Of a DNA stretch of 56,094 nt, positions 28,247 to 30,217 are shown in pieces. The stretch comes from Streptosporangiales bacterium (GTDB taxonomy: Bacteria; Actinomycetota; Actinomycetes; Streptosporangiales; WHST01). Each line of letters starts with the position of its first letter. Within the stretch, counting starts at the first letter, position 1. A program made the translations under genes and the position numbers. The notes under the pieces are model-generated. The model was not told the origin of the DNA and did no database searches. It saw only the letters and a program-made list of their open reading frames with translations. The stretch is taken from NCBI GenBank assembly GCA_009379825.1, contig WHTA01000033.1, positions 1-56,094 of the forward strand, written 5' to 3'.

Positions 28247-28612
28247 TCAGCGTTCGTGCGGGTGGGCGATGCGGCCGCACCAGAGGGCGGCGACCCACAG
28301 AGCGGCGAAGAGGACGCCGAGGAAGAACATCGCGGGGACGACGAAGCCGGTGCCGATCGCGACCAGCTGCAGGGCCGAGCCCGCGTAGTACGCCCAGCGG
28401 AAGCGCAGCAGCGCGCACAGCACGACGGCGACGAGAGCGAGGCCGCCGCCGATCAGCCACGCGGTACCCAGGTCGACGCCGCTGATCGAGTTCGCGACCG
28501 GCGCCGCGCAGACGAAGACGATCGCCTGGAAGATCAGCATGGTCGCGCAGAAGCGCCGGGTCACCCGGTTCACGTCGATCCACGGGCGCCGCTGCGCCGC
28601 CGCCTCGGTCAT
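28247..28612 (-). CDS. DUF4233 membrane protein
   Basis: ATG 28612 has GGGAGGAGG about ten bases upstream and gives 121 residues with four hydrophobic segments (FCATMLIFQAIVFVCAAPVA, ALVAVVLCALL, GSALQLVAIGTGFVVPAMFF, GVLFAALWVAALW). The family is characteristically encoded directly downstream of folC in actinobacteria. Here a 166-bp MITE separates the two. Function unknown. Confidence 0.8.
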   Translation of the reverse strand: MTEAAAQRRPWIDVNRVTRRFCATMLIFQAIVFVCAAPVANSISGVDLGTAWLIGGGLALVAVVLCALLRFRWAYYAGSALQLVAIGTGFVVPAMFFLGVLFAALWVAALWCGRIAHPHER

Positions 28613-28726
28613 ACCGCGACCGCCTCCTCCCGAGCCTCCGGCAGGTGCCGCGACAAGGTCCATCGACGCGTGGCGCACATCGCGACCCCCACCTCCACCT
28701 CGCTCACCGTCCAATCTCTCACGTGG

Positions 28727-28892
28727 CTAGGGCGCGTCTGACAACAGCTGTCCGGGCTGCGCGACGCCCATGACGGCCATTAGCGGTGTTGTCCTCAAGG
28801 CAAGTATGGCCAATACGAGCCATTCGTCCGCCACCGCTACTGACCGCCCTGGCCGCCGCTCGCCTCGAACGCCATTGTCAGACACGCCCTAG
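28727..28892. mobile_element. MITE-like foldback element on the folC stop codon
   Basis: The ends CTAGGGCGCGTCTGACAA (28727-28744) and TTGTCAGACACGCCCTAG (28875-28892) are inverted repeats matching at 17 of 18 positions. Inside, TAGCGGTG (28781-28788) and CACCGCTA (28832-28839) form a second inverted pair. The 166-bp unit has no coding capacity. CTAG at both ends looks like a duplicated 4-bp target. The right CTAG supplies the folC TAG stop (28889-28891), so insertion kept the gene intact. I infer a non-autonomous element mobilised by an IS with matching ends elsewhere in the genome. Confidence 0.75.
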
Positions 28893-30217
28893 CGCACCTG
28901 ACCGCCGAGCAGCAGCCGCGCGTCGCCCGCGGTCACCACGGAACCGGTCACGAGCACGCCGAGGCCGGAGGCGACGAGGTCCGTCCCCTCCTCCGCCTGC
29001 GCGATGGCGGTGTCGAGGGCCTCGTCCAGCCGCTCCACCACGGTGACCCGGTCGTCGCCGAAGATGCCGGCGGCGATCTCGCCGAGCTCGGCCGGCGGCA
29101 TCGAGCGGTCGGAGTGGTTGCGGGTCACCACGACCCGGTCGAGCACCGGCTCGAGCGCCTCGAGCAGGCCGGGCACGTCCTTGTCGCTCATCACGCCGAC
29201 GACGCCGATCAGCCGCTGGAAGGAGAACGCCTCCCCCAACGACGCCACCGTCGCCTGCATGCCGGCCGGGTTGTGCGACGAGTCGACGAGCACCGTCGGG
29301 CTGCGGCGTACAACCTCGAGCCGGCCGGGCGCGTTCACCTCGGCGAACGCGTCGCGCACCACCTCGATGTCGAGCTCCTTCGCAGCGGTGAACGCCTCGA
29401 CCGCAGCGAGGGCGACCGCGGCGTTGCTCGCCTGGTAGCTGCCGTGCAGCGGCAGGAAGATGTCCTCGTACGTGGTCTCCAGCCCGCGCAGCGACACCAG
29501 CTGCCCGCCGACGGCGGTGTCCTGGCTGAGCACGCCGAACTCCAGGCCCTCCCTGGCGACGGTCGCCTCCAGCTCGACGGCCTGGCGCATCAGCACCTCG
29601 GCGGCCGCCACCGGCTGCTGGGCCAGCACCACGAAGCCGCCCGGCTTGATGATGCCGGCCTTCTCCGTCGCGATGTCCACGACGTCGTCGCCGAGCAGGT
29701 GCGCGTGGTCGATCGAGATCGGGGTGCAGACCGACACCTGGCCGTCGACCACGTTGGTCGCGTCCCACGCGCCGCCGAGCCCGACCTCCACCACGGCGGC
29801 GTCGACCGGCGCGTCCGCGAACGCCGCGAACGCCATGCCGGTGACGACCTCGAAGAAGCTCATCGGCAGCCCGAGCTGCTGCTCCACCAGCTCGACGTAC
29901 GGCAGCACCTCGTCGTACGTGGCGACGAACAGCTCCTCGTCGATCGGCTCGCCGAGCACCGAGATCCGCTCCCTGACGGTCTGCAGGTGCGGGCTCGAGT
30001 ACCGGCCCACCCGCAGCCCCAGCCCGCGCAACAGCGCGTCGATCATCCGCGCGGTGCTGGTCTTGCCGTTGGTCCCGGTCAGGTGAATGGCGGGGTACGT
30101 ACGCTGCGGGTCGCCCATCAGGTCCATCAGCAGCCTGATGCGGTCGAGGCTCGGCTCCATCCGGGTCTCCGGCCACCGCTGCAGCAGCGCCCGGTCGACC
30201 TCTTCGAACCTGCTCAT
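28889..30217 (-). CDS. folC: Bifunctional dihydrofolate/folylpolyglutamate synthase
   Basis: The protein has 442 residues. The ATP-binding loop is [53 protein letters not shown] and [10 protein letters not shown] are the Mur-ligase-type blocks of FolC. It adds glutamate to dihydropteroate or folates. Its ATG overlaps the valS stop (ATGA), so translation is coupled. Its TAG stop lies inside the terminal repeat of the MITE. Confidence 0.95.

Follow-up and report, generated by a model that had tools for sequence, protein, structure and literature searches.

Palindromes of the REP and BIME type often lie just past stop codons; REPs are without paired transposon ends and TA duplication. IS870 is an insertion sequence (IS) of the IS5 type. 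In Agrobacterium it reportedly targets CTAG, and the target supplies the stop codon of its gene, a description said to go back to Fournier et al. in 1993 (cited in PMC6471742). RUP of pneumococcus and Correia of Neisseria are short gene-less elements that have IS-like terminal repeats and TA at their ends; RUP has been linked to IS630-Spn1, and most such elements are A+T-rich according to a review (PMC2229807). MITEAba12 of Acinetobacter is a mobile MITE recognised by the ends that it shares with an IS, and its insertion in an NTPase-like gene created a premature stop (PMC6382973). Blunt phrase searches of the open-access literature returned no description of the MITE family treated here, nor any account of bacterial MITEs exchanging their ends.

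The window, which is the whole 56,094-nucleotide stretch of DNA that was analysed, contains a foldback between folC and the gene for a DUF4233 protein (Table 1). Gene content and a GC of roughly 71% suggest an actinomycete as its source. A 166-bp foldback with terminal repeats matching at 17 of 18 positions had been described at 28727-28892 in the initial annotation, and it was found there, running CTAGGGCGCGTCTGACAA...TTGTCAGACACGCCCTAG, with the 17/18 match counted so as to include the CTA. The MITE proper is 160 bp long and carries no transposase gene. It is G+C-rich and wholly foldback, and as RNA it folds into a single end-to-end hairpin with a minimum free energy of -113 kcal/mol, compared with a mean of -66.7 (sd 4.1) for shuffled sequences (z = -11.25; 0 of 200 shuffles equally good). 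By convention, the GCGAGCGG arm is taken as the left.

Table 1. Features at the folC-DUF4233 junction (positions of the window)
Feature	Position	Strand	Basis
DUF4233 protein	28247..28612	-	ATG at 28612, GGGAGGAGG motif in front
Rest of the folC-DUF4233 spacer	28613..28727	-	Gap arithmetic
Left TA, probable target-site duplication, inside CTAG	28728..28729	.	CTA/.../TAA in 5/25 copies favours 2 bp over 4 bp
MITE (foldback), 160 bp	28730..28889	-	Copies in its own genome (84%, full-length), sister species and class
Terminal inverted repeat GGGCGCGTCTGACAAC	28730..28745	+	14/16 with the opposite end, between the ends proper
Palindromic core, class-wide regardless of ends	28756..28863	-	Core matches across the class
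Terminal inverted repeat GGGCGTGTCTGACAAT	28874..28889	-	16 bases the same as the ends of the IS5-like remnants L237, L238 and L239
folC stop TAG: TA from the host, then the first G of the element	28889..28891	-	FolC end position corresponds in sister species
Right TA, probable duplication: bases 1-2 of the folC stop (minus strand)	28890..28891	.	Sequence
Coding part of folC, with the middle and C-terminal Mur ligase domains	28892..30217	-	Domain matches

Its own genome and those of relatives yielded further copies, in keeping with the proposal that the foldback is a MITE. The window's own genome (G000) holds one other full-length copy, on a separate contig, with 84% identity over 165 bp. With the whole element as the query, the sister species G001 gave about 15 matches; with the core alone, it gave 24 places. 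Related elements occur in further genera of the order, and in a sample of the class the core was found in 115 of 395 genomes; the best class-wide match, to the query element from G208, reached 81% identity at full length, and many class-wide matches span the core only (query 24-133, for example). The copies adjoin unrelated genes in both orientations. Plasmid and phage collections gave no matches to the element. The sole match of a pattern scan of genome contigs, in a Burkholderiaceae MAG, lay in unrelated sequence in which the rest of the element was missing, and it was taken as chance. Judged by its copies, the window element is confirmed as a multicopy, TA-duplicating MITE with matched ends.

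Several forms of unusual length were also seen. In L046:1474-1690 (G001:C167), each arm is longer by a block of about 26 bp, with CTGCCTCCGGCG and CGCCGGAGGCAG complementary to each other, which looks like a symmetric lengthening of the stem; in L044 and L045 (G001:C216 and C186), the left arm has a block of this kind before the contig ends. At the other extreme are minimal elements of about 27 bp, L128 at about 1501-1528 (G281:C85) and L141 (G208:C1:3960601), which are scarcely more than a pair of abutting terminal repeats, TAGGGCGTGTCTGACAGACACGCCCTA; in L128, the element sits after an apparent reading frame ending in ...REI and a stop. L228:2295-2364 (G000:C3) is a foldback of 70 bp whose ends are of the GGGGTGTCTCTCGATG type; it lies at CTAG on a called stop codon and possibly represents another short MITE family in G000.

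The initial annotation stated that the element was inserted at CTAG and duplicated all four bases. Insertion at CTAG with retention of the stop is borne out, and the extent of the duplication needs revision. Both ends could be read in 25 copies, giving CTA/.../TAG in 19, CTA/.../TAA in five and ATA/.../TAG in one; thus, C precedes the left TA in 24 of 25, and the right end is TAG or TAA in all 25. Since the five CTAA copies keep the G after the left TA (CTA/G...C/TAA), the duplication is best read as the TA within a CTAG or CTAA target, with the G belonging to the element. A 4-bp CTAG duplication was set aside, as it does not yield CTA/G...C/TAA; a 3-bp duplication, CTA, is possible.

DUF4233 is the next minus-strand gene after folC. 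In both sister species, G001 and G002, folC is likewise followed by DUF4233 and the element is absent between them; the two genes lie about 26 and 125 nt apart there, and the spacers differ. This empty-site comparison agrees with the earlier claim that a MITE has come to separate the two genes. FolC terminates at the corresponding position in all three genomes, and in the window folC still ends in TAG, as had been noted, although the third base comes from the element. For the start of DUF4233, ATG 28612 is preferable to 28714, where the mechanical ORF begins, because of the comparison with the sister species and the preceding GGGAGGAGG motif. The distance from the folC stop to this start is 276 nt with the element and 114 nt if the element is removed; the latter already exceeds the G001 spacer. 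The suggestion that the element may uncouple DUF4233 from folC expression is weakly supported, because its removal would still leave a spacer of 114 nt. Neither a terminator-like U tract, as would follow the hairpin of an intrinsic terminator, nor a promoter pattern was found. The hairpin could influence mRNA stability or downstream expression. The G002 spacer (L058) holds a different inverted repeat, GGTTGATCATG...CATGATCAACC. The insertion at folC is itself ordinary; the interest of the element is in a rule by which stops are rebuilt at CTAG, and in a conserved core with exchangeable ends.

The identity of the helper was approached through the ends. Of 345 genomes of the order, only six contain TAGGGCGYGTCTGACAA, the exact end of the window element. 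In three of the six, which belong to two further genera, the exact 16-bp end terminates decayed IS5-like (DDE_Tnp_1_2) transposases; the end is identical in L237, L238 and L239 and adjoins the transposase C-terminus, and none of the three remnants is intact. In L239, an IS5-like C-terminal frame, ...LASLILWLHHQLSDTP and its stop, runs into TTGTCAGACACGCCCTAG, and the decayed transposase ends in ...FRAIAIRFDKLASRYRSGVLLASLILWLHHQLSDTP and a stop. This frame matches PF13586 with an E-value of 3e-6, slightly under the curated cut-off, and an intact element of G208 matches it at 2e-13. In G208, a well-assembled relative, intact PF13340-transposase elements with GGGCGTGTTTTGTGGA-type ends lie between CTA and TAG, and the transposase gene ends on the target TAG. 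These were obtained when the PF13340 search was redone with a looser limit in better-assembled relatives; a first search within the genus gave no matches, probably because the ISs had collapsed at contig ends. Candidates for the parent IS sought in the initial annotation are these IS5-like remnants in three other genomes, which have the exact end of the element, but no parent came to light in its own draft genome: in G000 no IS with an TCTGACAA end was found, only the two ends of the element itself matched, and the draft breaks at multicopy ISs. At its contig ends, multicopy ISs with other, related GGSCGTGTCT ends are found. Comparison by eye revealed no internal similarity between the element and the IS5-like (DUF4096/DDE_Tnp_1_2) ISs.

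Two multicopy IS5-like elements break the G000 assembly, one at the ends of C84 and C126 and the other at the ends of C26, C60, C91 and C160; their ends are GGGCGTGTCTCGTAATTGATC and GGCCGTGTCTCGTAAATGCG, and the IS copies of C126 and C91 are also on called stop codons. In G208, a PF13340 IS (C1:6982460-6983504) lies within about 1 kb of the MITE copy L137, the sole such neighbourhood seen.

Taken together, the element is read as a MITE that IS5-like ISs targeting CTAG would mobilise in trans through their transposases, a reading to which we assign a probability of about 0.88. An IS5-like transposase whose IS has GGGCGTGTCTGACAA ends would act on the element in trans and place it between the duplicated TA of CTAG. 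The first base of the element is G and its last is C, and for this reason a TAG or TAA in frame at the target TA would be rebuilt as TAG on both strands. In these genomes of about 71% GC, CTAG often coincides with stop codons, so insertion would cost the host little and copies would persist.

A quite different account holds that the hairpin is a functional RNA or an mRNA-processing element of the folC-DUF4233 operon, which has been kept for regulation and is MITE-like only in appearance. The very stable end-to-end hairpin and its compensatory changes would fit such a role, but the site is empty in both sister species, where the spacers differ, and copies lie beside unrelated genes in either orientation. 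The compensatory changes, moreover, cluster in the terminal repeats, as expected of paired transposase sites, and the U tract of a terminator is missing. Rfam gave only weak matches, far under the gathering score; these were two sub-threshold matches to miRNA precursors, of the kind that a long hairpin yields by chance. This account is thus considered highly improbable, and the reading as a MITE is retained. How far the MITE's preference for stop codons goes beyond its target is a closer question. An insertion was scored as being at a stop when its TA was the stop of a coding frame under a codon-usage model built from 430 long genes of the sampled regions, and the sampled regions that supply the baselines amount to about 1.26 Mb in three genomes, called with a home-made gene caller. 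If the stop-codon insertions came purely from the CTAG target, with no extra bias, a high background at CTAG would be expected, and this is what was found: only 1.3 to 2.2% of all TA in the three genomes are at stop codons, compared with 19 to 38% of CTAG sites by genome (44/154, 30/80 and 19/99). In the same loci as the insertions, 8 of 19 CTAG sites are at stops, and against these the excess is not clear. Against the purely target-driven account, 18 of 35 insertions fall on called stop codons, three of these doing so on both strands, compared with 93 of 333 (28%) regional CTAG sites (one-sided p = 0.005), although the baselines differ between genomes and depend on the home-made caller. The odds on the absence of any extra bias seem about even. 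Since the excess is unclear against CTAG in the same loci, the CTAG target is regarded as the main cause, and further selection for insertion at stop codons is possible. At L119 (G208:C1:613230-613393), L242, L252 and L253, two convergent frames apparently share a CTAG as overlapping stops, where a single insertion would rebuild two stop codons; the left frame of L119 scored slightly below the threshold.

The ends of the element vary in a manner that the core does not. In G001, the copies L015 and L026 are 99.1% identical in their cores and 38.7% identical in their 16+16 terminal bases, and L025 has a third end type with a core 94% identical. The two ends within each copy match at 14 to 16 of 16 positions, save in L021, a hybrid in which a TCTCCAAAC end is combined with a TCTCCTTAT end (12/16). 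When 13 copies were aligned, changes on both sides were counted in 12 of the 14 terminal base pairs, compared with 2 of the 28 pairs of the main core helix. Yet further matched ends, for example GGGGGTGTTGTGCGGAT and GGGCGCGTTCCGTGGAT, occur in copies across the class. The core of roughly 110 bp is shared class-wide, and from these comparisons we infer that the ends have been swapped in pairs. The differing ends might instead have arisen by point mutation, both ends drifting in concert under selection by diverging transposases. The match of the ends within a copy would follow from this as well, and some end types, namely TCTCCAAAC, TCTCCTTAC and TCTGCTTAT, are a few bases apart. However, L026-type ends, GGAGGTTGGTGTGAAG, are only 39% like those of L015 on cores 99% identical, which is too much for drift, and a one-ended hybrid such as L021 also speaks against it. 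Concerted drift is accordingly thought unlikely. Exchange is preferred: on an unchanged core, the two ends would be replaced as a pair, the probable routes being recombination or arm-to-arm copying from one copy to another, with selection for matched ends following, and one core could then use several transposases. The wider proposal, which we favour with some reserve, is that of a class-wide MITE lineage with a conserved palindromic core of about 110 bp that is re-ended with unrelated matched repeats and is movable by several transposases; host stops would be spared because all such transposases use CTAG.

This offers a simple rule for low-cost spread in a GC-rich genome, in which the target tetramer is often a stop and the element brings the rebuilding base. 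If the exchange of ends is real, it would explain how a gene-less element can outlive any single helper transposase, and a class with thousands of sequenced genomes allows a direct test of that question. The natural paired-end variants on one core also form a set for testing the recognition of ends by transposases.

When compared with the described systems, the element shares with RUP and Correia its short, gene-less form, its IS-resembling terminal repeats and the TA at its ends, but it is G+C-rich, fully foldback and CTAG-targeted, and its core occurs with several unrelated end pairs. Like MITEAba12, it is a bacterial MITE sharing its ends with an IS; unlike the MITEAba12 insertion, the one at folC is at the stop and leaves the gene product unchanged. 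It resembles REP and BIME sequences as a palindrome right after a stop codon and differs from them in its paired ends and TA duplication. The ISs found here likewise end their transposase on the target TAG, as IS870 does; whereas IS870 is autonomous, the element is gene-less, uses the same target and preserves the stops of its hosts.
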